Shown here one piece after another: positions 975-24,608 of a stretch of DNA of 36,576 nt. Source of the stretch: Candidatus Methanogaster sp. (GTDB lineage: Archaea > Halobacteriota > Methanosarcinia > Methanosarcinales > Methanogasteraceae); assembly GCA_003194445.1 (NCBI GenBank), contig PQXF01000014.1, positions 36,108-72,683 on the forward strand. The letters run 5' to 3'. Every line of letters starts with the position of its first letter. The first letter of the stretch is position 1. A program made the position numbers and the translations under genes. The notes below the pieces were generated by a model that worked only from the letters and a program-made list of their open reading frames with translations, made no database searches and had not been told where the DNA came from.

Positions 975-998
975 ATCTGTAGAGGATGTGCTTCTGAA

Positions 999-1031
999 GA
1001 GCCGGATGAGGGAAATCTTCAAGTCCGGTTC
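999..1031 (+). ncRNA. Group II intron domain V
   Basis: The 33-nt element begins GAGCCGGATGAGGGAAA and ends AAGTCCGGTTC. The outer GAGCCGGA/TCCGGTTC strands pair, and a GAAA tetraloop sits in the middle. The AGC catalytic triad is present at 1000-1002. It lies 25 nt after the maturase stop, as expected. Domain V is the catalytic core of group II RNA, so the ribozyme 3' part seems better preserved than the protein. Confidence 0.7.
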
Positions 1032-1100
1032 TGTGAGGGGGCGCATAGTAACCTCGGGGCTATTACCCCGGAAAGAGGTGCGCTATGTGCCCTACTTGAC

Positions 1101-7844: not shown

Positions 7845-10409
7845 ATGAACCTGAATAATACAATGTTTACACTCATGCTGATAGTTATAGTTTGCGGCAC
7901 GGCGAGCGCGGCACAAATAAATGTCAATCAGACTGGCTGGTGGAATGAGGCTGGCGATACAACATTTCATGAAATAAGTCCCGGTCAAATACAAGCGGCT
8001 GTAGATCACGCAAACGCGGGAGATACGATTCATGTATATGGCGGCAATTACACAGAGAATGTGGACGTAGATATAAAGCTCACTCTGATTGGAGCTGGTG
8101 CTGATGTGGTGACCGTGACTGCTAGAGCGACAGACGATAGTATATTTGATGTAGGGGCTGATTATATAAACCTCAGTGGATTTGCGGTGACCGGTGCTAC
8201 CGGAGCAGTCGGAATTCGCCTTCCTGATGTGAATCACTGCGATATTTCCGGTAACAACGTCTCGAACAACGATTATGGTATCTACCTGCTTGCTTCGAAC
8301 AACAACGTGCTGACATGCAACATGGCATCGAACAATACTCATGGTGTCTGGTTGTGCGATGCAGACAATAACACGCTTGCGGGCAATATAGCGTCGGACA
8401 ATGAAAACGGCATCCGGTTATACGATGCAGGCAACAACACGCTTACGGACAACACGGCATCGAACAATACCTACGGCATCTGGTTGTGCGATGCAAGCAA
8501 CAACACGCTTACGGACAATACCGGACTGAACAACACAGAGGGCATATACCTATCTTCTTCGGATGATAACGACCTCATGGACAACACTGTAATGGGCAAC
8601 AACTATGGTATCCATCTGTATTCTTCGGGCAACAACACATTGCAGGACAATGATGCGGTTTCAAACGACGGGTACGGCGTCTATCTGAATTCGTCGAGCA
8701 ACAACACGCTTACGAGCAACACTGCAACGGATAACTGGTACGGCATCAACCTGTGCCATTTGAGCAACGAAAACACATTGGTAAACAACATAGTCTCTAA
8801 CAACGGCTATGGTATCTGGCTGGAATATTCGAGCAACGATAACGAACTTCTGGACAACACCGCAACTGGCAACTACTATGGTATGTATCTGGATTCTTCA
8901 GATGATAATATACTTGTGGACAACACCCTCTCGAACAATGAGCATGGCATTGACCTGCACCACTTGAGCAACACTACATTACAGAACAACAATGCATCCG
9001 ATAACAACGGATACGGCATATACCTGGATTCTTCGGATGACAATAAGCTCATAAGCAATGGTGCATCACGCAACAACTACGGCATATACCTGGATTCTTC
9101 GGGTGAGAATATACTTATGAACAATACCCTCGTGGACAACGAGTATGGTATTAACCTGTACCACTTGAGTAACAATAACAACCTTACGGACAACACCGCA
9201 ACGGACAACTACTACGGCATATACCTGGATTCTTCGGATGACAACAAGCTCATAAGCAGTGGTGCATCACGCAACAACTACGGCATATATCTGGATTCTT
9301 CGGATGGCACTGTACTTATGAACAGTATCATCATAGACAACAGCTACTGTGGCATCTATGGGAAATGGTTAGTTGACAACGATATTATGGGCAACATCGC
9401 AAACTCGAACGGTAAATATGGTATCCATCTATCGTCTTCGACTGGCAACAGACTCACGAACAACACCATGTCAGACAATGAATATGGCATCTGGTCTCAT
9501 TTATCAAGCTGCAATATACTGACAGATAACGCCATGTCAGCTAATGAATGCGGTATCTGGTTACATTCATCAACCGATAACAGACTCACGAATAACACCG
9601 CGTCGGCTAATGACTGTAATGGTATTGTGTTGTATGATTCGGCACGTAACCACCTTGTGAACAATACAGCATCAGATAACGACTACGGAATCCACCTCTC
9701 TTCTTCGACCAGCAACCGGCTCACCGGCAACATCGTGTCGGGCAATACCTATTATGGAATCCACCTCTCTTCTTCGACCAGCAACCGGCTCACCGGCAAT
9801 ATCGTGTCGGGTAATGGCTATGGAATATATATGCACAGCGCAGACGGCAACATCATCACGTACAACAGTGTGCGCAACAATGGACGGCAAGGATTCCACT
9901 TAACGGACGGGAGTGCGGGCAACACGATCGGATACAACGACATCGTATCAAACGGCATGCAGGTGGGTGTTGGCGAGTATCACTGGAATTTCTATAACAA
10001 CCAAACAGACGATGTGCAGGCGAAGAACAATTACTGGGGCGCGACTGACGACAGCATGATCGATGCCGGCATCTATGATGGCGATGCTGGTGAGGGGGAA
10101 GGAGAAGTAGGCGAAGTAGCGTTCCATCCATTTGCGACTGAGCCACACGTATACGAACCGATTCCGGAACTACCCGGCGATGTCAATTATGATGGAGAAC
10201 TCTCGGTTGCGGACGCGGTACTTGTTTTACAGATGGCTGCTGGCAACATCGATATCGACTATATTGCAGATATGAATTCGGACTGTGTAGTTACCTCGCT
10301 TGACGCGCTCATAATTATGCAAGCGTCGGCGGATGGGGTCGGTTCATCAGGTACTGCATCGTACACCGGTTTTCCATATCCAAAGGTTATTGGATCCGGC
10401 TCAAGGTGA
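7845..10409 (+). CDS. Secreted NosD-like parallel beta-helix protein with dockerin
   Basis: The 854-residue protein has a signal peptide (about 1-22, ending in CGTASA). Next comes an IQAAVDHANAGDTIHVYGG start typical of carbohydrate-binding/sugar-hydrolase (CASH) beta-helices. About 25 PbH1-type turns follow (GIYLDSSDDNxLxxN), as in the NosD family. Near residues 776-830 there is a dockerin-like pair of calcium loops (DVNYDGELSVAD and DMNSDCVVTSLD). The fold suggests polysaccharide or glycan binding outside the cell, and the dockerin implies docking to a cohesin such as those at 15338 and 19376. No C-terminal anchor is present in frame; a decayed sorting-signal remnant lies just downstream. 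An ATATATG start with GGAG 8 nt upstream supports this start. Confidence 0.9.
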   Translation: MNLNNTMFTLMLIVIVCGTASAAQINVNQTGWWNEAGDTTFHEISPGQIQAAVDHANAGDTIHVYGGNYTENVDVDIKLTLIGAGADVVTVTARATDDSIFDVGADYINLSGFAVTGATGAVGIRLPDVNHCDISGNNVSNNDYGIYLLASNNNVLTCNMASNNTHGVWLCDADNNTLAGNIASDNENGIRLYDAGNNTLTDNTASNNTYGIWLCDASNNTLTDNTGLNNTEGIYLSSSDDNDLMDNTVMGNNYGIHLYSSGNNTLQDNDAVSNDGYGVYLNSSSNNTLTSNTATDNWYGINLCHLSNENTLVNNIVSNNGYGIWLEYSSNDNELLDNTATGNYYGMYLDSSDDNILVDNTLSNNEHGIDLHHLSNTTLQNNNASDNNGYGIYLDSSDDNKLISNGASRNNYGIYLDSSGENILMNNTLVDNEYGINLYHLSNNNNLTDNTATDNYYGIYLDSSDDNKLISSGASRNNYGIYLDSSDGTVLMNSIIIDNSYCGIYGKWLVDNDIMGNIANSNGKYGIHLSSSTGNRLTNNTMSDNEYGIWSHLSSCNILTDNAMSANECGIWLHSSTDNRLTNNTASANDCNGIVLYDSARNHLVNNTASDNDYGIHLSSSTSNRLTGNIVSGNTYYGIHLSSSTSNRLTGNIVSGNGYGIYMHSADGNIITYNSVRNNGRQGFHLTDGSAGNTIGYNDIVSNGMQVGVGEYHWNFYNNQTDDVQAKNNYWGATDDSMIDAGIYDGDAGEGEGEVGEVAFHPFATEPHVYEPIPELPGDVNYDGELSVADAVLVLQMAAGNIDIDYIADMNSDCVVTSLDALIIMQASADGVGSSGTASYTGFPYPKVIGSGSR

Positions 10410-10656
10410 CTGGTGACTGGTGTCCTTGCGCGCCTGACCCCGCGAGAAAGCAGGTATCACTGACTGATGATCCGAAAGCGGTTGCAAGCGGATGGCGACA
10501 ACAGTTTAACTTTTCGGGTGTGACGATGGCAGGACTGTAACGTTCTGCGGCTGCCGCCAACCGGGGGTGCCAATTCTGATGCCAGCTGGGGTGTTTGTGC
10601 TCATCAGTATGTTGCGCATCATAGGTAGACAGGATCGTAAAAAAGGAAGGGGATCA
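10385..10656 (+). pseudogene. Decayed C-terminal fragment with VPxxxP-CTERM tail
   Basis: In a frame different from that of the preceding gene, codons from about 10385 read LKVTGDWCPCAPDPARKQ and continue to about 10520. After another frame change they read DGRTVTFCGCRQPG, then VPILMP (10567-10584), a hydrophobic stretch with ISMLRIIG, and the basic RQDRKKG. This tail closely parallels the sorting signal of the 11044 protein (VPLLTP). No start codon or single open frame connects the pieces. It may be the lost end of the NosD-like protein or of a deleted gene. Confidence 0.5.
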
Positions 10657-10687
10657 TGGAGTATAGTTATAACTTATGTAAGTATAA

Positions 10688-10740
10688 TTACAATGTGCTA
10701 TAGTTTTGGCGATTCCAAAGATCGACCGATACCTTTATAG
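10688..10740 (+). promoter_or_regulatory. Promoter of the 11044 gene, duplicated type
   Basis: A 27-bp upstream element (10688-10714, beginning TTACAATGTGC and ending GGCGATT) lies exactly 16 bp before ACCTTTATA (10731-10739). The same element, spacing and TATA core occur at 12335-12386 before the 12597 gene. A start near 10765 would leave a leader of about 280 nt. Confidence 0.65.
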
Positions 10741-10833
10741 TGTATGAAGTGGTGTATTATCGATACGCACAACAGAGTTTGACAAACTCGGTAGTACGTA
10801 TAATAGAGCGACCGTGGAGGTGCAAACAAAAAA

Positions 10834-10878
10834 ATGGTAAAATACACACGGAACTGTAAAATAATCATTACCACATGA
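10834..10878 (+). CDS. Upstream ORF (14 codons) in the leader of the 11044 gene
   Basis: MVKYTRNCKIIITT is preceded by a strong GGAGGTG 11 nt before its ATG. A similar 14-codon ORF (MKFTRTVKQTTNNT) with GGAGG upstream lies in the leader of the 12597 gene. The common ribosome site, equal length and shared K-(Y/F)-T-R-x-x-K suggest a translated leader peptide rather than chance. Confidence 0.45.
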   Translation: MVKYTRNCKIIITT

Positions 10879-10974
10879 TGCGTGGAGGCGCGTTGGTGTT
10901 TATGCCGCGTCTATGTGCGGTGGTGTTTTTCATATACATTCGATGTATGTGTGTATAGAAGTATGAACAGTATG

Positions 10975-11023
10975 CAGGTTGCAACAACCTGTATGCGCGC
11001 GGTGATGTGATAAAAACCGCGCG
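10975..11023 (+). promoter_or_regulatory. Two tandem hairpins before the ribosome site of the 11044 gene
   Basis: Hairpin 1 is CAGGTTG (10975-10981)/CAACCTG (10985-10991). Hairpin 2 is CGCGCGGT (10996-11003)/ACCGCGCG (11016-11023). AAAGGAGG follows within 20 nt, then the ATG at 11044. The leader at 12530-12571 has the same order of an AGGTT/AACCT hairpin and then a GCGCG/CGCGC hairpin. Confidence 0.55.
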
Positions 11024-11043
11024 ATAAGAAGAAAGGAGGCTAT

Positions 11044-12309
11044 ATGAATCTGAAAGAAATGGTAGTATTCATCGCAACAGTGACGATGTTTATGGTCATC
11101 TTCACATCGACTGCGGTGGCGATAGTCGTGGATGGTGATGGAAGCGATTGGGATCCATCTGACCAGCTGTGCGACGATCCTACTGGTGATACGTGCAGTA
11201 CCGGATATGACATAGAGTCGCTATGGACGTGTGTCGAAGGCAATACCGTGTACTTCCGGATAGATGTTCTTGAAGTGGCAGGCGATGCCGATAACGATGG
11301 CCATCCGGACACGCATACGCCAGGAATGAGTTGTAGTTGCGATTGGGATTATCCTGGTGTTGGCGTTGGTGCGACCTATGAGAAAGAACAGTACTATATC
11401 GGAATAGATGGTGATCACGATGGCACTATAGACTATAACCTCAAGTACTGTTCAGGCGATTCCTCTCTTCGGTACCCCAGCGAGGCGGTAATCCCTGCAG
11501 CGATCACTGATGCAAATCATAGTGGCAAGACTGTCGAGTTTAGCTTAGTGATTGATTCGTACCTCGATCCCACAGACTACTGCGTAACAGGAACTGCAGA
11601 TACGCATTGCAATGGAAATGAGGATGACACCAATCCGGAGTGCCGTATCGACGATGACCCTAATGCCGAATTCAGCTACACTGGTACTGGATGTAAGATA
11701 GTTACACTGGATGCATCAGCATCATGGGATTCGGAAGGGCCGATAGCCAGGTTTGAATGGGATCTTGATAACGATGGAGTCTACGAGGTAGATAATGGGG
11801 CTTCCCCCACATACGTAGCAGATGTTGCGACAACCGGTCTTCAGGTGGGTGCCAACACTATCAGACTCCGGGTGACCGACAGTATGGGGCAGACTGATTC
11901 GACAGATGTGCCACAGGTAATCGTGACTGGCGACCCGACTGCAGTCGCAAAGGCGAACGGACATACGGGGTCCATCCAGCTTCCGGTTGGAGGCATGGAC
12001 ATAACCTTCGATGGAACCGGATCATTTGCAGATTCGCCGGCTACCCTCGATCTTGGTAAGTGCCAGTGGATTATAGACGGTACGCTCTACGCAGGATTGG
12101 GGCCACACACGGTCTCCATAGATCATGCTACCCCGGCAAGTCTGAAAGTAGAAGACAACTACGGCTGCATAAGCTATGGTTATGTCACTATACGGGAACC
12201 ACCATCTGCGCCGGTACCACTCCTGACGCCAGCCGGAATACTTGCACTCATCGGTATGCTGTGCATAGTCGGCGCGGGCAGGGTCATTACGAAGGGTAGG
12301 AGGTTGTAA
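11044..12309 (+). CDS. Secreted PKD-domain protein with VPxxxP-CTERM signal
   Basis: The 421-residue product has a signal peptide (about 1-26). Asp-rich sequence follows, with calcium-loop-like stretches such as DADNDGHPDTH and DGDHDGTIDYN. Near 220-300 is a PKD-type Ig fold (LDASASWDSEGPIARFEWDLDNDG). The C-terminus has VPLLTP, a hydrophobic helix with ILALIGMLCIVGAG, and basic residues (TKGRRL). This is the VPXXXP-CTERM layout, so ArtB-type processing and surface anchoring are expected, probably by the enzyme at 5072. AAAGGAGG 8 nt before the ATG fixes the start. Many Cys residues suggest disulfides. The ligand is unknown. Confidence 0.88.
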   Translation: MNLKEMVVFIATVTMFMVIFTSTAVAIVVDGDGSDWDPSDQLCDDPTGDTCSTGYDIESLWTCVEGNTVYFRIDVLEVAGDADNDGHPDTHTPGMSCSCDWDYPGVGVGATYEKEQYYIGIDGDHDGTIDYNLKYCSGDSSLRYPSEAVIPAAITDANHSGKTVEFSLVIDSYLDPTDYCVTGTADTHCNGNEDDTNPECRIDDDPNAEFSYTGTGCKIVTLDASASWDSEGPIARFEWDLDNDGVYEVDNGASPTYVADVATTGLQVGANTIRLRVTDSMGQTDSTDVPQVIVTGDPTAVAKANGHTGSIQLPVGGMDITFDGTGSFADSPATLDLGKCQWIIDGTLYAGLGPHTVSIDHATPASLKVEDNYGCISYGYVTIREPPSAPVPLLTPAGILALIGMLCIVGAGRVITKGRRL

Positions 12310-12334
12310 ATCGCCATGAATTATGCAGACATAG

Positions 12335-12388
12335 TTACAATCTGCCATAATTTTAACGATTATGCAGACAGCACGATACCTTTATATA
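12335..12388 (+). promoter_or_regulatory. Promoter of the 12597 gene, duplicated type
   Basis: The element at 12335-12361 (TTACAATCTGCC... to AACGATT) matches 10688-10714 at most positions. It has the same 16-bp gap to ACCTTTATA (12378-12386). It begins 26 bp after the stop of the 11044 gene, so the 12597 gene has its own promoter. Confidence 0.65.
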
Positions 12389-12484
12389 AGATGGAGTAAC
12401 TGAATGACAGTAATGCTTCTCGGTTTGTTCGAGCCCGGGAGCATACACAAGAATACAAAATGGAGGTTATGGACGAAAAACCCC

Positions 12485-12529
12485 ATGAAATTCACGCGAA
12501 CCGTGAAACAAACAACGAACAACACGTAA
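12485..12529 (+). CDS. Upstream ORF (14 codons) in the leader of the 12597 gene
   Basis: MKFTRTVKQTTNNT parallels the 14-codon ORF at 10834. GGAGG lies 18 nt upstream. An overlapping 23-codon ORF from 12469 is an alternative, but its ATG is only 2 nt from GGAGG. The ORF ends at the foot of the first leader hairpin. Confidence 0.4.
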   Translation: MKFTRTVKQTTNNT

Positions 12530-12571
12530 ACAGGTTGTAAAAAACCTGTGATTTGCGCGAGTAATTCGCGC
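12530..12571 (+). promoter_or_regulatory. Two tandem hairpins before the 12597 gene
   Basis: ACAGGTT (12530-12536)/AACCTGT (12543-12549) is followed by GCGCGA (12555-12560)/TCGCGC (12566-12571). AAAGGAG and the ATG at 12597 come next. The architecture matches 10975-11023 although loops and spacers differ, which suggests that the pairing is conserved. Confidence 0.55.
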
Positions 12572-12596
12572 ATAACACACAAAGGAGAATACGAAC

Positions 12597-15260
12597 ATGA
12601 ATACGAAGAAAACGGCAATAACCATTGTATTAGCTATAATGGCTGTTGCTATGATAACGACTGTCGCAATGGCTACAAATTGCTTTGAGCCATGCGGCAC
12701 AAAAATCGAGCAGTGCACCAATGATGCACCGACAAAGGACGCGGTATATGCGCTTGTGATTCCAGGAGTCACCGGAGCCACATCAGCAAATGCCGCAGTT
12801 CCTGCAATGGCATTTGCATTTGCTGATGGTAACGGGAACGGTGTATTCGAACTAGGCGAATGTGCATACGTCGATACAAACGCTGCTGTAGGTCCCGCTT
12901 GGGTTGAACAAGGAGATATTCGACTATGCGGTCACTGCGGCAATGATCCAAATACACCAGTACTGGTGTGTGATCCACTCGAAATGGGTAACGCGCTTGT
13001 ATATCCTAACAACTTTGGCGTCCAGAACATAGTAGGGTATTACGACATTAATGCCAATGGCTACTATGACATAGCCGACCCACTATATCTAGATGTTTCA
13101 GCGGTTACAGTTGCACCCGGTGCCCCATCCGGTATTAGTGTTGTGTCGGTTGGAGATATAAGGCTATCCGCTAGCGCTTATGGCGCTGCATACAGTTTCG
13201 TGAACGCGTCAGACCTGGATACGCTCTTTGGTGGTTTCCAGCTGTTTGATCCTGCACCAGCAGTCCCCGGTGCGCAAACTCCGTTAGTCAATGACTTCAA
13301 CGACTTCCTTGGCTTCGTTGATACGGCTTGCGACAATGAATGGGACGTAAAGGGCGCGGATAAACTCTACCTGCAACAAATAGTTATAGGCGAGCCTGCA
13401 AATGCACCACTCCCACTTGTTCAGAATACACTCTATGCATTCGAGGGATTTGTGACAATAGGCGACTTCAGGCTGTACATGCCGCTAAATGAGCCATGCT
13501 GGCCTGACTGCGGAACAAAGGTCGAACAGTGCAACGGTGATGCGGTGTACCCGCTTCTGATACCGGGCGTAGACGTACCACTGACTGGAGTAGCAAATCC
13601 ACTCATGCGGTTGAGATGGGTTGATGCAACGCCCGGCGGTCCATTCGATCCTGCGTTCGACGATGTATACATAGAGACAAACCCACTCAGCGCTAACCCT
13701 AACCGGGTTGAGGTTGGTGACGTTCGATTGACCTCTGTGTGCGGATGCGATCCGAACACATTGGTTGGTCAATGCAGCCTGTGTGACGTCAATGCGCAGT
13801 ATGCACCTCTGGTAGTAGCGGATCAACTTATATTAGGATACGTCGATGCGAACGGCAACAACAGATATGATCTGGATGACCCACTATATCTGGACACAAG
13901 CACACTTGGTGTTGGCGCTGTAGGCGCTGGCGTTGTGTCGATCAATGATATAAGGCTGACAGCCAGATATTCTTATGACAACTACTCCATTGTTGCGGGT
14001 GGTGACGACGACCTATTAGGGGATAGAACTCTTCGAGATATCGCTACAGTAGGTCATCCACAAATACCATCGGTTGATCCGATAAACAGCTATCTGGGAT
14101 TCGTGGACTCAGGCTGTGATGGTGAATGGGATCCGCTGGGTGCAGACAAACTCTATCTGCAACAGGTGGTCTTCACACTCGTCGGCGCTCCTGGTGCTCC
14201 TGCTATGAATCAGCTTGACAGGTTTGCATCGATCGGTGACTTCAGACTGTACATGCCGATAGATGAGCAGTGCTGGCCTGACTGCGGTACAAAGGTAGTC
14301 GAGTGTGATGTGGATGCGGTCTATGGACTCCTGCTTGGTGCCGGTCATCTACCAGCTCCAGTCCCTGGTGGAGTGATCAATGGAGCAGTCCCTGCAATGA
14401 ACATCGTGAGAACGTCGCGTGGTTGCTACTATGTCAACGTATACAATCATCCAGCAGGCGCTCCAGTTGGTCCTGGTGCGGTGCGATTGTGCGACTGCTG
14501 CGATACCGAGAGCAACACCGTGGTGAAAGACTGTGACGACGACGCCAATGATCCGATTATCCTAATCCCACAGACTATAGTGGGATATGTCGATGTGAAC
14601 AGCAACGGCTTGTATGATCTTGGCGACCCGCTGTATCTGGATACGGGCAGAACCGGTGTGTTTGATACCAACGCCGTATCGGATGGCGACGTGCGACTGA
14701 CTCCAAGAGATGTTCAGGGACATCATTATAAAGCATACTCCATTGTTGATGCCGCTGATTGGGATGCCGGACATGGTAGTGGCGTCGGCGATATACTATA
14801 CTCTCCAAAGCGTGGCGGAGCTGTTCTAGCGAACACAGTGCCCAATGTAAACTGGTATCTCGGATTCATCGATTCCAACTGCGATGGCATGTGGGATGTT
14901 AATGGTGAGGACGAGCTGTATCTGCAGCAGATGGTGCCAGCACCCGCATGGATTGCGTTCAACGAGCCACAGTTCAACTTGTTCTCGACGATTGGAGATG
15001 ACAGGCTGTACATGCCACCAAGCACAACACCTGTGTGTCCGCAACTCGAGGGCGATGTCAACAACGATGGTAACATCGATGGTGCGGATGCACTACTGAT
15101 TGCTCGGCACATCGTTGGACTAACAACATTGACTGGTAACGATTACGATGCAGCAGACGTCAATGATGATGGTAACATCGATGGCGCAGATGCATTGTTG
15201 ATCGCTCGGTACATTGTAGGACTCATAACGACCTTCCCAGGTGGAGTCTGTATCCCGTGA
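12597..15260 (+). CDS. Secreted three-module Cys-rich protein with C-terminal dockerin
   Basis: The 887-residue protein has a signal peptide (about 1-25). Three homologous modules follow, near 29-300, 301-558 and 559-816. Each opens with a Cys cluster (C-x-x-C-G-T-K-x-x-x-C), contains VGYVDxNGNxxYDxxDPLYLD and closes with IGDxRLYMP. The module is not one I recognise; its Asp/Asn-rich motif may bind calcium. Residues about 819-884 form a textbook type I dockerin with two loops (DVNNDGNIDGAD and DVNDDGNIDGAD), each followed by ALLIAR(H/Y)IVG. The protein should therefore dock onto a cohesin, and the cohesin gene follows directly. There is no transmembrane anchor. Its own promoter and structured leader lie upstream. 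Confidence 0.92.
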   Translation: MNTKKTAITIVLAIMAVAMITTVAMATNCFEPCGTKIEQCTNDAPTKDAVYALVIPGVTGATSANAAVPAMAFAFADGNGNGVFELGECAYVDTNAAVGPAWVEQGDIRLCGHCGNDPNTPVLVCDPLEMGNALVYPNNFGVQNIVGYYDINANGYYDIADPLYLDVSAVTVAPGAPSGISVVSVGDIRLSASAYGAAYSFVNASDLDTLFGGFQLFDPAPAVPGAQTPLVNDFNDFLGFVDTACDNEWDVKGADKLYLQQIVIGEPANAPLPLVQNTLYAFEGFVTIGDFRLYMPLNEPCWPDCGTKVEQCNGDAVYPLLIPGVDVPLTGVANPLMRLRWVDATPGGPFDPAFDDVYIETNPLSANPNRVEVGDVRLTSVCGCDPNTLVGQCSLCDVNAQYAPLVVADQLILGYVDANGNNRYDLDDPLYLDTSTLGVGAVGAGVVSINDIRLTARYSYDNYSIVAGGDDDLLGDRTLRDIATVGHPQIPSVDPINSYLGFVDSGCDGEWDPLGADKLYLQQVVFTLVGAPGAPAMNQLDRFASIGDFRLYMPIDEQCWPDCGTKVVECDVDAVYGLLLGAGHLPAPVPGGVINGAVPAMNIVRTSRGCYYVNVYNHPAGAPVGPGAVRLCDCCDTESNTVVKDCDDDANDPIILIPQTIVGYVDVNSNGLYDLGDPLYLDTGRTGVFDTNAVSDGDVRLTPRDVQGHHYKAYSIVDAADWDAGHGSGVGDILYSPKRGGAVLANTVPNVNWYLGFIDSNCDGMWDVNGEDELYLQQMVPAPAWIAFNEPQFNLFSTIGDDRLYMPPSTTPVCPQLEGDVNNDGNIDGADALLIARHIVGLTTLTGNDYDAADVNDDGNIDGADALLIARYIVGLITTFPGGVCIP

Positions 15261-15300
15261 TATCGCAAGATATCACCCCCTTTCTTTTTTATTGAAAGGG
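15257..15300 (+). terminator. Two hairpins between dockerin and cohesin genes
   Basis: GTGATATC-GCAA-GATATCAC (15257-15276) is an 8-bp stem with a GNRA tetraloop that contains the stop codon. It is followed by CCCTTTC (15278-15284)/GAAAGGG (15294-15300) with T-rich sequence in the loop. This could terminate, process or stabilise the mRNA between the two genes. Confidence 0.45.
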
Positions 15301-15337
15301 TGGGATACAAAATATAACCCACAGGAGTGATGAACAC

Positions 15338-17017
15338 ATGAAAATGACAACAACAATGGTTGTGTGCTTAATAGCATTGGCAGTGTTTGGCATGGTCCTA
15401 CCGGCTGGGGCAGCTACTTCAGCATCGATCGGATCTGCAACGAGCAGCACATGCGACACTGTCGCTATAACGATAGACACTGATGAGACTGCAGGCATAG
15501 GGTCTGCAACGTTCACAGTGGTCTATGATACGTCAAAGGTTAGCCTGAACAGTGTGTCAAGTGGTGCTCTTGGTACAGTTACATGGGCTGATGCCAGTGG
15601 AACCGTTACGATGACGGCTACAGACGCGCTAACCTGCCCGACAGGCAACGGTATAACATTTGCAGACCTTGAGTTCTGTCCTGTGACCGGAGCATCTGGT
15701 TGCAGCGACCTGAATCTTGAGGTAACATCGCTCTATGACTGCGATGTCAGCTCGATCACACCGGATTCTGTCAACGATGGGCAGTTCTGCATAAGCGGAG
15801 GAGGCCCTGCCGCTACCACAGTATCGATCGGATCTGCAACGAGCAGCACATGCGACACTGTCGCTATAACGATAGACACTGATGAGACTGCAGGCATAGG
15901 GTCTGCAACGTTCACAGTGGTCTATGATACGTCAAAGGTTAGCCTGAACAGTGTGTCAAGTGGTGCTCTTGGTACAGTTACATGGGCTGATGCCAGTGGA
16001 ACCGTTACGATGACGGCTACAGACGCGCTAACCTGCCCGACAGGCAACGGTATAACATTTGCAGACCTTGAGTTCTGTCCTGTGACCGGAGCATCTGGTT
16101 GCAGCGACCTGAATCTTGAGGTAACATCGCTCTATGACTGCGATGTCAGCTCGATCACACCGGATTCTGTCAACGATGGGCAGTTCTGCATTGGGGCGCC
16201 AAACGACCCCCCAACCGTAACCGTCACATACCCCACCAGTGGTACAGTTAAAGGTCCGATAGACGTGACCGCAACTGCGACAGACACCGATGGAACAGTG
16301 ACGCAGGTAGCGTTCTATCTGATGCCAGCAGGAACCCTGATCAACACACCAGATACCAATGGCGCTGACGGGTGGAGTGTCTCTCTTGACACGACCACTG
16401 CCGCCGACGGAGATTACCAGATCAAGGCAGTGGCAACAGATGACGGCGGTGCGACAGACGATGACACCGGCGGCGTGTTCGAAATCGACAACTCGTGTCC
16501 ATGCGACTTCTGCTACGACCTCGTAGCCGGATTGAACTTTGTCTCAATCCCGAAGACGCTTGACAGTCCGAAGGACACAACGACGGTATTTGACGTAGAC
16601 TACTACTCTGGTGAGTTCTGTCTCTACTATGACGCATCGGCAGGATCATTTTATCTTAATGCAGATGTAAAGCCGTGCCGAGGTTACTTGGTGTACAAGA
16701 ACGCCGCAAAGACGGTATGCGTGGACTTTGATGATGCTGCACCTGCCCCATCTCAGCAACTCTATGAGGGCTGGAACATGATCGGTCACATAAAGACGGT
16801 AGCGATGCCAATCAACGACGGCACCACTGCAGACTTCGTATCGATCACCGGTCTCGAAGAGCCTGAGGGCTATGAACTGTTCAGACTGATGGCTACATAC
16901 ACAGCAGGCACAGGATGGTCCGAGTACCCATCTGGCAGTCTTACAGAGGCGACTCCAGGTACAGGATACTGGATCTACATGGACCAGGGCGCCACGATGT
17001 CCGGAGGCTTTGAATAA
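15338..17017 (+). CDS. Scaffoldin-like protein with two identical cohesin domains
   Basis: The 559-residue protein has a signal peptide (1-25). Two cohesin domains (about 28-152 and 161-285) carry the family pattern: IGSATSSTCDTVAITID, GIGSATFTVVYDTSKVSLNSV, GALGTVTW and ITFADLEF. They come from a 369-bp stretch that is identical in both copies. An Ig-like domain follows (about 290-385, VTVTYPTSGTVKGPIDVTA). The C-terminal region (395-559, Cys-rich, with LVAGLNFVSIP and EGWNMIGHI) resembles the end of the 20137 protein. Cohesins bind dockerins through calcium-dependent contacts, so this is the likely scaffold for the dockerin proteins at 7845 and 12597. No anchor is visible, so attachment to the cell may go through another partner. 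AGGAGTG lies before the ATG. Confidence 0.9.
   Translation: MKMTTTMVVCLIALAVFGMVLPAGAATSASIGSATSSTCDTVAITIDTDETAGIGSATFTVVYDTSKVSLNSVSSGALGTVTWADASGTVTMTATDALTCPTGNGITFADLEFCPVTGASGCSDLNLEVTSLYDCDVSSITPDSVNDGQFCISGGGPAATTVSIGSATSSTCDTVAITIDTDETAGIGSATFTVVYDTSKVSLNSVSSGALGTVTWADASGTVTMTATDALTCPTGNGITFADLEFCPVTGASGCSDLNLEVTSLYDCDVSSITPDSVNDGQFCIGAPNDPPTVTVTYPTSGTVKGPIDVTATATDTDGTVTQVAFYLMPAGTLINTPDTNGADGWSVSLDTTTAADGDYQIKAVATDDGGATDDDTGGVFEIDNSCPCDFCYDLVAGLNFVSIPKTLDSPKDTTTVFDVDYYSGEFCLYYDASAGSFYLNADVKPCRGYLVYKNAAKTVCVDFDDAAPAPSQQLYEGWNMIGHIKTVAMPINDGTTADFVSITGLEEPEGYELFRLMATYTAGTGWSEYPSGSLTEATPGTGYWIYMDQGATMSGGFE
15424..15792 (+). repeat. 369-bp exact direct repeat, copy 1 (cohesin)
   Basis: The sequence is identical to 15823-16191 (offset 399 bp) by direct reading. 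It encodes a whole cohesin domain. Identity at third codon positions implies recent duplication or ongoing gene conversion. Confidence 0.9.
15823..16191 (+). repeat. 369-bp exact direct repeat, copy 2 (cohesin)
   Basis: This is the second copy of 15424-15792, separated from it by a 30-bp linker that codes for about 10 residues. Confidence 0.9.
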
Positions 17018-20136: not shown

Positions 20137-23004
20137 ATGAAGAAAACATTTATCTTCGGAATGGTGCTGATTGTGATGATGATTTGTGTATCATCTGCAG
20201 CAGCACAGGATACTGTTACCAGAGATCTACCGGACAGCGCAGATGCCGATACGACGATTACAGTCAATTTGGCTGTTGATGTTGAGACGACTGCGGGTAG
20301 TCTTCTCATAGATGAAGTGGTGCCATCCGGTTGGACTGTTGTCAGTGCAACAAACGACGGTGATTACGCAACCCTTGCTGGACATATATACTGGACGAAA
20401 CTCAGCAGTGTTACGGATGCAACATATTCGTACACCATACAGATTCCAGCAGATGCATCTGGCACGCATATGTTTGGCGGCACGTACATGTTTGACACGA
20501 TGGCAGCAGACGCAATCATTCATGGCGATACCGAGATTACGGTCGGCACCGAGCTACCTACGCCTGAACTTACATCCTGCGTCATAGACCCAACTTCACC
20601 GGTCGTGCAGGGCACCAACATAACGGTTGACTGTCTGTTCTCGGAGAAGGTAACGTATGAAATCCGTATCGAGAATGCCACGGGATACCTGGTCGAAGAG
20701 CTTGGTAGCGGCACTGCAAAGGATCCACAGAAGAAGTGGTGGAACACAACCACTGAAACCCCGGTTGGAATCTATACCGTGAACGTGACCATGGACAACT
20801 CCACATCAGGAATGTCATCGTATAACAACACGAACACGATTGAGGTCACTCCTGCAGGGGATCCCACACCGCCAGTCATCACCGATGTTACATGTGACAC
20901 GCCAACAACCGACTCGGTAAACATCACATGGACTACGGATGAGGGCAGTGACAGTCTTGTCAAGTATGGCACAGTGTCCGGAACTTACACGGTTGAGGTA
21001 TCTGATGCCACTATGACAACATCGCACAGCATCATGCTGACCGGACTTGATGCAGATACGGACTACTACTTCGTTGTGAACAGCACGGATGCGAGTGACA
21101 ATTCGGCTGAGAGTGTAGAATCCAGTTTCAAGACTGCAATAGTTGTTGCAGTACAGGATACTGTTACCAGAGATCTACCGGACAGCGCAGATGCCGATAC
21201 GACGATTACAGTCAATTTGGCTGTTGATGTTGAGACGACTGCGGGTAGTCTTCTCATAGATGAAGTGGTGCCATCCGGTTGGACTGTTGTCAGTGCAACA
21301 AACGACGGTGATTACGCAACCCTTGCTGGACATATATACTGGACGAAACTCAGCAGTGTTACGGATGCAACATATTCGTACACCATACAGATTCCAGCAG
21401 ATGCATCTGGCACGCATATGTTTGGCGGCACGTACATGTTTGACACGATGGCAGCAGACGCAATCATTCATGGCGATACCGAGATTACGGTCGGCACCGA
21501 GCTACCTACGCCTGAACTTACATCCTGCGTCATAGACCCAACTTCACCGGTCGTGCAGGGCACCAACATAACGGTTGACTGTCTGTTCTCGGAGAAGGTA
21601 ACGTATGAAATCCGTATCGAGAATGCCACGGGATACCTGGTCGAAGAGCTTGGTAGCGGCACTGCAAAGGATCCACAGAAGAAGTGGTGGAACACAACCA
21701 CTGAAACCCCGGTTGGAATCTATACCGTGAACGTGACCATGGACAACTCCACATCAGGAATGTCATCGTATAACAACACGAACACGATTGAGGTCACTGC
21801 TGAAGGCGTCATGACCACGTACTACGGCGATGCTGACGGAGATGGTTACGGCGATCCAGAAAACACCACAGAGGCATACTCTGCACCGACTGGCTACGTC
21901 ACAGACAACACAGACTGCGATGACACCAACGCGGATGTCAATCCGGGAGCAACAGAAGTCTGCGGCAACGGAATCGATGACAACTGTGATGGACAGATCG
22001 ATGAAGGCTGCACCCTAACAACGTACTACGGCGATGCTGACGGAGATGGTTACGGCGATCCGACAAACACCACAGAGGCATACTCTGCACCAGCGGGCTA
22101 TGTTGCGGACAACACGGACTGTGATGACACCAACGCGGCTGTAAATCCGGGAGCAACAGAAGTCTGCAACGGTATCGATGACAACTGTGATGGGCAGGTC
22201 GATGAAGGCGTCATGACCACGTACTACGGCGATGCTGATGGTGATGGTTACGGCGATCCGACAAACACCACAGATGCATGTTCTGCACCAGATGGCTACG
22301 TCACAGACAACACAGACTGCGATGACACCAACGCGGATGTCAATCCGGGAGCAACAGAAGTCCGAAATGGCATCGATGACAACTGTGATGGACAGATCGA
22401 CGAAGGCTGCCCAATCATCTGGTCTGCAACATTGTCTCCGAATGTTATCCAATCTGATGGAACCGACAGCACCACTCTGACGGTTTTGGCAAGCGACGAT
22501 GTTGGCATTGCAAGCGTTATTGTGAACCTGTCAGCGATTGGCGGACCGGATAAGCAAACACTGACTCAGCAGGGTGAGATAGTGGCGAACGTCGGCACAT
22601 GGACAACAACCATCAACACCACTCGTGCTGGAACGTTTGAGTTACCAGTCACTGCTATAGATGACGATGATAGTTCGGCTACAACATACGTCACATTGAC
22701 AGCAGGTCCTAACACGTACACTCTCTCTCTCAAGCAGGGATGGAATGTGATCTCACTGCCTTACAATGTTACCGCAGTTGGGATCGATACCACCCAGAAA
22801 CTTGGTGACCTGATCATCGGTGCTGGAGAGGATTGTTACTATGTAGCATGGTTCAATGCAACATCGCAGACGATGGTGTCTGATATCATTATCCCACCAG
22901 AAGGTGTGCCGCAGGACACCACCTATCCAATCATGGGAGGGCTGGGATACTTTGTGTTTGTAGAGGGCGATTTGGACGTTGTCGTGGCTGGAACGCCATG
23001 GTGA
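20137..23004 (+). CDS. Large secreted repeat protein with Fn3 and MopE-like metal-binding repeats
   Basis: The 955-residue protein has a signal peptide (ending SSAAA). A domain of about 215 residues (DTVTRDLPDSADADTTITVN...) is encoded twice by identical 646-bp DNA. A fibronectin type III domain lies between the copies (about 245-332, VITDVTCDTPTTDSVNITW). Three Asp-rich repeats run from about residue 559 to 755 (YYGDADGDGYGDP ... DCDDTN ... NPGATEVC ... GIDDNCDGQIDEG). They match the putative metal-binding motif named after copper-binding MopE; copy 3 has Arg in place of the first Cys. An Ig-like domain and a C-terminal domain (LKQGWNVISLPYN) similar to the end of the 15338 protein complete it. 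AGGAGG precedes the ATG. Confidence 0.88.
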   Translation: MKKTFIFGMVLIVMMICVSSAAAQDTVTRDLPDSADADTTITVNLAVDVETTAGSLLIDEVVPSGWTVVSATNDGDYATLAGHIYWTKLSSVTDATYSYTIQIPADASGTHMFGGTYMFDTMAADAIIHGDTEITVGTELPTPELTSCVIDPTSPVVQGTNITVDCLFSEKVTYEIRIENATGYLVEELGSGTAKDPQKKWWNTTTETPVGIYTVNVTMDNSTSGMSSYNNTNTIEVTPAGDPTPPVITDVTCDTPTTDSVNITWTTDEGSDSLVKYGTVSGTYTVEVSDATMTTSHSIMLTGLDADTDYYFVVNSTDASDNSAESVESSFKTAIVVAVQDTVTRDLPDSADADTTITVNLAVDVETTAGSLLIDEVVPSGWTVVSATNDGDYATLAGHIYWTKLSSVTDATYSYTIQIPADASGTHMFGGTYMFDTMAADAIIHGDTEITVGTELPTPELTSCVIDPTSPVVQGTNITVDCLFSEKVTYEIRIENATGYLVEELGSGTAKDPQKKWWNTTTETPVGIYTVNVTMDNSTSGMSSYNNTNTIEVTAEGVMTTYYGDADGDGYGDPENTTEAYSAPTGYVTDNTDCDDTNADVNPGATEVCGNGIDDNCDGQIDEGCTLTTYYGDADGDGYGDPTNTTEAYSAPAGYVADNTDCDDTNAAVNPGATEVCNGIDDNCDGQVDEGVMTTYYGDADGDGYGDPTNTTDACSAPDGYVTDNTDCDDTNADVNPGATEVRNGIDDNCDGQIDEGCPIIWSATLSPNVIQSDGTDSTTLTVLASDDVGIASVIVNLSAIGGPDKQTLTQQGEIVANVGTWTTTINTTRAGTFELPVTAIDDDDSSATTYVTLTAGPNTYTLSLKQGWNVISLPYNVTAVGIDTTQKLGDLIIGAGEDCYYVAWFNATSQTMVSDIIIPPEGVPQDTTYPIMGGLGYFVFVEGDLDVVVAGTPW
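20205..20850 (+). repeat. 646-bp exact direct repeat, copy 1
   Basis: The sequence reads identical to 21153-21798 (offset 948 bp), with no difference seen at synonymous sites. It encodes about 215 residues. Confidence 0.88.
21153..21798 (+). repeat. 646-bp exact direct repeat, copy 2
   Basis: This is the second copy of 20205-20850. The copies diverge abruptly at both ends, as in a recent tandem duplication interrupted by the Fn3 segment. Confidence 0.88.
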
Positions 23005-23816: not shown

Positions 23817-24608
23817 ATGGACGGCAGGTACTACAATGTCACTGTAACCGGCGATGTGCAGGACATTGGGTTTCGCAGATTCATCGAGAGTACCGCAAAT
23901 TCATATCATGTACGCGGTTATGTATTCAATGATCTTGATGGTAGCGTGAAGATGCTTTGCGGTGGTTCGGTTGAGTCAGTGAATGAATTATTCCATGCGA
24001 TACAGACGCGAGCACCACCCGGCATCAGCATCGGACAGTTTGTGAAGGACGAGATCATCACCGATATCGATCTGAATATGCCTTCGGAGTTCTTGAAACT
24101 CGGAACTGATGAAATATCAGACATCGGCAGAAAACTGGACAAAGGTGTTAAACTACTGGAAGCGCTGCCTGATATCAAGGAGAGTGTAAGCATACTCCCA
24201 GATATCAAGGAGAGTGTAAGCATACTCCCAGATATCAAGGAGAGTGTAAGCATACTCCCAGATATCAAGGAGAGTGTAAGCATACTCCCAGATATCAAGG
24301 AGAGTGTAAGCATACTCCCAGATATCAAGGAGAGTGTAAGCATACTCCCAGATATCAAGGAGAGTGTAAGCATACTCCCAGATATCAAGGAGAGTGTAAG
24401 CATACTCCCAGATATCAAGATCGGTATTGATGCGATGAACATGAAATTCGATGCATTCACAGACGAACAAAGAACTTTCAATCAGAACGTGGGATCGCAC
24501 ACCAAACGCCTCGATGGTTATATCGAGGAACAGAGGGAGCATAACAAACTTATGGGTGCGCACAACCTCCGTCTGGAGCAGATCCTGCAAAAACTCGTAG
24601 AAAAGTAA
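23817..24608 (+). CDS. Acylphosphatase-domain protein with eight 10-residue repeats
   Basis: Residues 1-90 are an acylphosphatase domain. GDVQDIGFRRF carries the phosphate-binding Arg and VFNDLDGSV the catalytic Asn, so hydrolysis of acyl phosphates is possible. Residues about 119-198 are eight identical copies of DIKESVSILP, from a perfect 30-bp tandem repeat. The last 60 residues are charged and helical (EQREHNKLMGAHNLRLEQIL), probably a coiled coil. The fusion far exceeds a stand-alone acylphosphatase of about 90 residues. There is no signal peptide, so it is cytoplasmic. The gene is probably monocistronic. Its function is unknown. Confidence 0.85.
   Translation: MDGRYYNVTVTGDVQDIGFRRFIESTANSYHVRGYVFNDLDGSVKMLCGGSVESVNELFHAIQTRAPPGISIGQFVKDEIITDIDLNMPSEFLKLGTDEISDIGRKLDKGVKLLEALPDIKESVSILPDIKESVSILPDIKESVSILPDIKESVSILPDIKESVSILPDIKESVSILPDIKESVSILPDIKESVSILPDIKIGIDAMNMKFDAFTDEQRTFNQNVGSHTKRLDGYIEEQREHNKLMGAHNLRLEQILQKLVEK
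24171..24410 (+). repeat. 30-bp tandem repeat, 8 perfect copies
   Basis: The unit GATATCAAGGAGAGTGTAAG plus CATACTCCCA occurs eight times without a mismatch, and a ninth partial copy (GATATCAAG) follows. The length is a multiple of three, so copy-number change would keep the frame. Confidence 0.97.

Follow-up and report, generated by a model that had tools for sequence, protein, structure and literature searches.

A candidate structured leader RNA with a shared promoter upstream of exported-protein genes in an ANME-2 family

Two leaders within a cluster of exported-protein genes

The window analyzed here, a stretch of 36,576 nucleotides from the genome of Candidatus Methanogaster sp., carries two genes that are preceded by similar leaders, all features of which lie on the + strand, as do the genes. 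Gene A (11044–12309) encodes an exported PKD-domain protein of 421 amino acids, as judged from protein-domain and homolog comparison, and gene B (12597–15260) encodes an exported protein of 887 amino acids with a C-terminal dockerin, as judged from protein-domain comparison. The two proteins are unrelated to each other. A first-pass annotation had described a common order of parts before the two genes, and each of these parts was recovered in its place. In front of gene A, a 27-bp upstream promoter element (TTACAATGTGCTATAGTTTTGGCGATT, 10688–10714) is followed by a BRE/TATA box, ACCTTTATA (10731–10739), which fits the archaeal TATA consensus; in front of gene B, the element (12335–12361), which was matched in genome and family searches, is followed by the same box (12378–12386). 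The spacer between element and box is exactly 16 bp in both cases, as the annotation had it.

Leader A has a 5' hairpin, H0 (10763–10801), and then contains the 14-codon ORF MVKYTRNCKIIITT (10834–10878), within which comparison with other leaders reveals ACACGGAAC (10846–10854), a diverged copy of the motif ACGCGAAC. Next comes a stem with its loop, P1 (10867–10927, where 10867–10874 pairs with 10919–10927), recognized by covariation, followed by the stem H2 (CAUAUACAU/AUGUAUGUG with a GU bulge, 10930–10953) and, directly 3' of H2, a single-stranded UAUAGAA (10954–10960) that is conserved among the leaders compared. The AGGTT/AACCT hairpin H3 (10972–10994), the GCGCG/CGCGC hairpin H4 (10997–11022), which was found by folding, and a GGAGG ribosome site seen on inspection of the sequence (11035–11039) complete the leader. 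Leader B retains H0 (12410–12446, from folding and leader comparison), one exact ACGCGAAC (12494–12501) within its 14-codon ORF MKFTRTVKQTTNNT (12485–12529, from the small-ORF comparison), H3 (12530–12549) and H4 (12554–12572), the latter two placed by folding and by comparison with a leader from another genome of the family, G002. A GGAG at 12584 precedes the ATG of gene B at 12597. P1 and H2, which would be expected 3' of the motif, are absent from leader B, which has lost them; this conserved structure of ~95 nt in leader A was also missing from the first-pass list of parts. Both leaders are roughly 195–290 nt long, with hairpins close to the start codon, and both fold better than all of 200 dinucleotide-preserving shuffles (z = -3.1 for A and -4.1 for B). 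Their length had been taken as long for an archaeon with leaderless genes nearby, but such lengths are frequent among related methanogens: in Methanolobus psychrophilus, 24% of the 5' UTRs exceed 150 nt (PMC5378194).

The surroundings are rich in genes of a similar kind. Positions 7845–17017 of the window hold a cluster of genes for exported proteins with beta-helix/NosD, PKD, dockerin and cohesin domains, which looks like one extracellular-matrix locus. Within the cohesin-domain protein at 15338–17017, two copies of 399 bp (15413–16191) are 99% identical, and the cohesin domain is, on this reading of the DNA, recently duplicated. Further downstream, a 955-aa protein (20137–23004) has MopE-type metal-binding repeats, in a region with 198-bp DNA repeats and ORFs recurring at a spacing of 948 bp. 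The ORF at 23817–24608 contains 8.3 perfectly identical 30-bp units (GATATCAAGGAGAGTGTAAGCATACTCCCA, 24171–24419); because these units are in frame, at 10 residues per unit, and carry zero substitutions, a very recent expansion is suggested. At the other end of the window, a match to the group II intron domain of Rfam (RF00029; E = 2.9e-7, 50.7 bits) lies at 997–1100 (+).

Recurrence and covariation of the leader

When 60 relatives were searched at the DNA level with leader B, and all 17 genomes of the window's family (ANME-2 cluster, probably ANME-2c/Methanogasteraceae) with a related leader, further leaders came to light. Together with the matches of the models described below, they delineate a leader family of ten copies in six of the 17 genomes. 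No further convincing copies were found among the 185 genomes of the order and the 237 genomes of the class that were searched. The core common to leader A and most of its relatives consists of P1, H2, the unpaired UAUAGAA and H3. H2 takes the form CCAUAUAC...GUAUAUGUGG, interrupted by a bulge of two bases, most copies (although not A) have a second ACGCGAAC inside the P1 loop, and H4 is optional, being found in some copies and not in others. The place of H0, close to where the transcript is expected to start, is taken by a hairpin in seven of the eight complete leaders, and the sequence of this hairpin differs among them.

Since MAFFT alone misaligned the stems, a covariance model (R1) was built from seven copies whose structural alignment was made by hand, with a few insertion residues trimmed and uncertain parts masked with N. 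In the 17 family genomes, R1 recovered all of its training copies, with E-values (rough for both models, owing to short calibration) down to 1.2e-25, as well as the related copy on G012:C6 and a new copy outside the training set (G008:C69:2941–3049, E = 0.009, hereafter G008b), which has the promoter element at the matching spacing, outside the modelled region. As a check on circularity, a second model (R2) excluded all sequence of the window together with the copies G009b, G008b and G012b. In the 3.6-Mb genome from which the window derives, leader A was the only clear match of R2 (E = 3.6e-8), and the other three held-out copies were located at their expected places, the weakest being G009b (E = 0.024). 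Weak model matches in G000:C138 and G010:C145 were rejected because no promoter element was apparent on reading, and a match in G077 (E = 0.04 among 185 genomes) was taken as chance. H2-like DNA matches in G000 (C147 and C42) were set aside, as they lie in almost identical stretches that look like coding sequence, and a match in G047 (L007) was set aside as a 22-bp chance match. At the Rfam gathering threshold there was no match in the window's leaders, and relaxing the threshold for six leader loci brought up one chance-level microRNA match (E = 2.8), outside the leaders.

Covariation was assessed on nine aligned copies from draft genomes of one family. In this alignment, 87.4% of the cells in paired columns are paired, and two-sided changes occur in 19 of the 27 pairs (4/9 in P1, 7/10 in H2 and 8/8 in H3), counts that are inflated to some extent by fitting the alignment to the structure by hand. 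None of 500 shuffles, which ignore the relatedness of the copies, reached the observed value on any of five pair measures, and sliding the partners by 1–3 columns lowered the pairing to 26–60%. Moreover, when single leaders were folded without guidance, the stems of P1, H2 and H3 were recovered in most copies. Compensatory changes are thus seen in all three helices, and covarying structure upstream of coding genes is what is generally looked for in a structured cis-regulatory leader. The search of related genomes with covariance models, a kind of test that the annotation had proposed, turned up both homologs and compensatory changes, the opposite of one half of the outcome that it had named as fatal to its idea, the other half being about transcript starts.

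It might be argued that the likeness of the leaders reflects nothing but common descent after a recent duplication of a cassette of promoter, leader and signal peptide. Genes A and B are adjacent, and leader B is 85% identical to the G002 leader across the region from H3 and H4 to the start and up to the signal peptide, although the proteins that follow are unrelated. The helices, however, persist although different copies and genera build them from different letters, which descent alone does not explain. Duplication can therefore account for the spread of the leader but not for its conservation, and we regard it as a most improbable explanation of the whole.

Equally improbable is that P1 acts as a transcription attenuator, in which the stem and a U run would terminate transcription unless refolded. 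In leader A a TTTTT (10926–10930) does follow P1, but in the G002, G013, G009b and G008b copies this run is interrupted or missing, so that the hairpin with a U run in every member by which an intrinsic terminator is recognized was not found.

Genes, promoters and small ORFs associated with the leader

The leaders precede exported-looking proteins that are mutually unrelated, with PKD, dockerin or dockerin-like, and subtilase domains, and the earlier label of surface proteins is broadly right in this sense. A homolog of gene A in G013 (45% identity) carries a leader of the same type as A. The genes behind the G002 and G008a leaders form a related pair (29%) with C-terminal dockerin-like repeats that were seen by eye and not called by Pfam, and G008b lies before a subtilase gene whose signal peptide was likewise seen by eye. 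As unrelated proteins stand behind similar leaders, leader and promoter travel independently of the protein body. Not all copies appear intact: G009b looks decayed, and on G012:C2 (L014, 36–1079) the gene behind the leader reads for 67 codons and a transposase-like ORF lies shortly beyond, so that the gene is probably interrupted there. The promoter-leader copies on G012:C2 and G012:C6 (L062 and L063), in one genome, are 91% identical; in the second of them the similarity ends inside H2, and no evident gene lies 3' of the leader.

The 27-bp element is likely an activator site. It occurs twice in the window's 3.6-Mb genome, where the reversed control pattern is absent, and the pattern of element, 20 bp and TATA box occurs five times in the 17 family genomes (control, zero), with strict matches only in G000, G008 and G009. 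Element, 20-bp stretch and (C)CTTTATA box have identical spacing in seven promoters, whereas the two G012 copies are more diverged. In a scan of 84,980 genomes, the only two archaeal matches to the promoter pattern were family copies already known, from isolate AUK006 (Methanosarcinales) and WYZ-LMO14 (ANME-2 cluster), and the remaining matches were single bacterial ones. The two archaeal matches, like the cohesin/dockerin genes, agree with a placement of the family in ANME-2c/Methanogasteraceae (PMC9012536), which is therefore its probable name. A promoter of the A/B type also stands at G008:C69:4648 (L061, 4648–4750), before an exported C39-peptidase-like gene, a call that depends on a weak, sub-threshold Pfam match. 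This gene adjoins the core-bearing subtilase gene, and its own leader comprises a few tens of nucleotides and lacks the RNA core. Given this promoter with a short leader on the one hand and leader B without P1 and H2 on the other, promoter and RNA are separable modules. The genes look like a regulon that is apparently co-regulated by the shared promoter, with an RNA layer added on some members.

The annotation had left it open whether control runs through RNA or through a leader peptide encoded by the 14-codon ORFs, whose translation would regulate the downstream gene. The RNA half of this proposal has gained ground from the homologs, the held-out copies and the compensatory changes, while the peptide half has lost it. 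In seven of the nine copies compared, an AUG does precede the first ACGCGAAC-like motif by 9–15 nt, a frequency above that expected for one trinucleotide in a 7-nt interval, and its position is therefore a recurrent feature; initiation at this AUG may conceivably have a role. What follows the AUG, in contrast, differs from copy to copy, as lengths span 1 to 44 codons and neither frame nor stop nor peptide is constant: the G012a copy has ATG-TAA, a start codon followed immediately by a stop, and G009b and G008b have no such ORF. No conserved short peptide or stalling sequence was found among the nine copies, and a conserved peptide in the 14-codon ORFs was accordingly rejected. The likeness of MVKYTRNCK and MKFTRTVK is attributable to the nucleotide motif underneath, since ACGCGAAC is read as T-R-T in some copies and as H-A-N in others. 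In addition, although both 14-codon ORFs are present and preceded by GGAGG as first described, the distance of ~13 nt in A and ~18 nt in B is too great for an ordinary ribosome site. The trp and erm leader-peptide attenuators resemble the present leaders in having a short ORF and hairpins upstream of a gene, but differ in what is missing here, namely a conserved peptide and frame, a stalling sequence and a conserved terminator. We therefore consider control by a leader peptide quite improbable, and control by RNA instead, by a structured RNA family that was previously undescribed, very probable.

Possible roles of the leader

We propose that the leader is a cis-acting structured RNA which, together with a shared and apparently co-regulated promoter, controls the protein output of exported-protein genes in the ANME-2 family studied, a reading to which we assign a probability of about 0.68 on comparative grounds. 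Sequence comparison shows its parts in the order of the fixed-spacing element, the 5' hairpin H0, ACGCGAAC, P1, H2, H3, the optional H4 and the ribosome site, and the leader would influence the translation or the stability of the mRNAs. The motif ACGCGAAC and the conserved unpaired stretches around H2 (UUUUCC and UAUAGAA) may bind a protein, a small molecule or an RNA. The set of leader-bearing genes suggests no ligand, and the long-range partners sought for ACGCGAAC differ in position from one copy to another and are seldom better than those of shuffles. A more specific idea, which we find doubtful, is that when the base of H2 opens, the pyrimidine stretch UUUUCC could pair with the GGAG ribosome site and lower translation, whereas with H2 closed the ribosome site would be free. 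Among possible partners of the ribosome site, UUUUCC ranks first or close to first in five of eight leaders and is a weak one in leader A, but this pairing shows no covariation in these eight leaders, where own and swapped pairs are equally strong.

In bacteria, ompA and S-layer mRNAs have long leaders that stabilise the message or enhance its translation, and a comparable role has been suggested for mRNAs of cold-adapted methanogens. The ompA and S-layer leaders, too, are structured leaders on genes for exported proteins, and the main rival to our proposal is that the present leader is a constitutive 5' structure of this kind, stabilising or enhancing the mRNAs of highly expressed exported proteins without any sensing. 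The 5'-terminal hairpin H0 in nearly all complete leaders and the exported, structural nature of the downstream products are in keeping with this, as is the link between long leaders and transcript stability in a related methanogen (PMC5378194). On the other hand, the ANME-2 leader differs from the ompA and S-layer leaders in its conserved core of several helices and its repeated motif, and the conserved unpaired ACGCGAAC and UAUAGAA, together with three covarying helices, exceed what a simple stabiliser needs. A purely constitutive role thus appears unlikely to us, and a regulatory leader RNA remains the reading that we favor.

The long 5' UTRs of the Methanosarcinales Methanosarcina mazei and Methanolobus psychrophilus, which are linked to mRNA stability and cold response, are similar in length and come from the same clade, but, unlike the ANME-2 leader, they are not known as one covarying structure that recurs across genes (PMC5378194). 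Another parallel may be found among the orphan structured 5'-leader motifs of a comparative-genomic study that reported 104 candidate structured RNAs, which likewise combine covarying helices and conserved unpaired stretches before functionally related genes (Weinberg et al. 2010, PMC2864571). The present leader differs from them in sequence and structure, has no Rfam match and is confined to one ANME-2 family. In the literature that we searched, no structured cis-regulatory RNA was found described for ANME lineages.

To our knowledge, archaea have so far yielded few structured cis-regulatory RNAs. It is tempting to speculate that the leader represents a new archaeal class of sensing RNA, akin to riboswitches or binding a protein, by which ANME-2 archaea in contact with partner bacteria would adjust the amounts of cell-surface and extracellular-matrix proteins (dockerin, PKD and protease), and that leader B is a natural version without the sensing domain; this idea is tentative. 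For ANME-2c, it has been proposed that proteins are anchored to the outer layer through dockerin/cohesin pairing, which might also serve interactions with bacteria (PMC9012536). The leader-bearing genes include those of extracellular-layer dockerin and PKD proteins, and a defined RNA together with its promoter element would provide a handle on the regulation of the extracellular layer in uncultured ANME-2.
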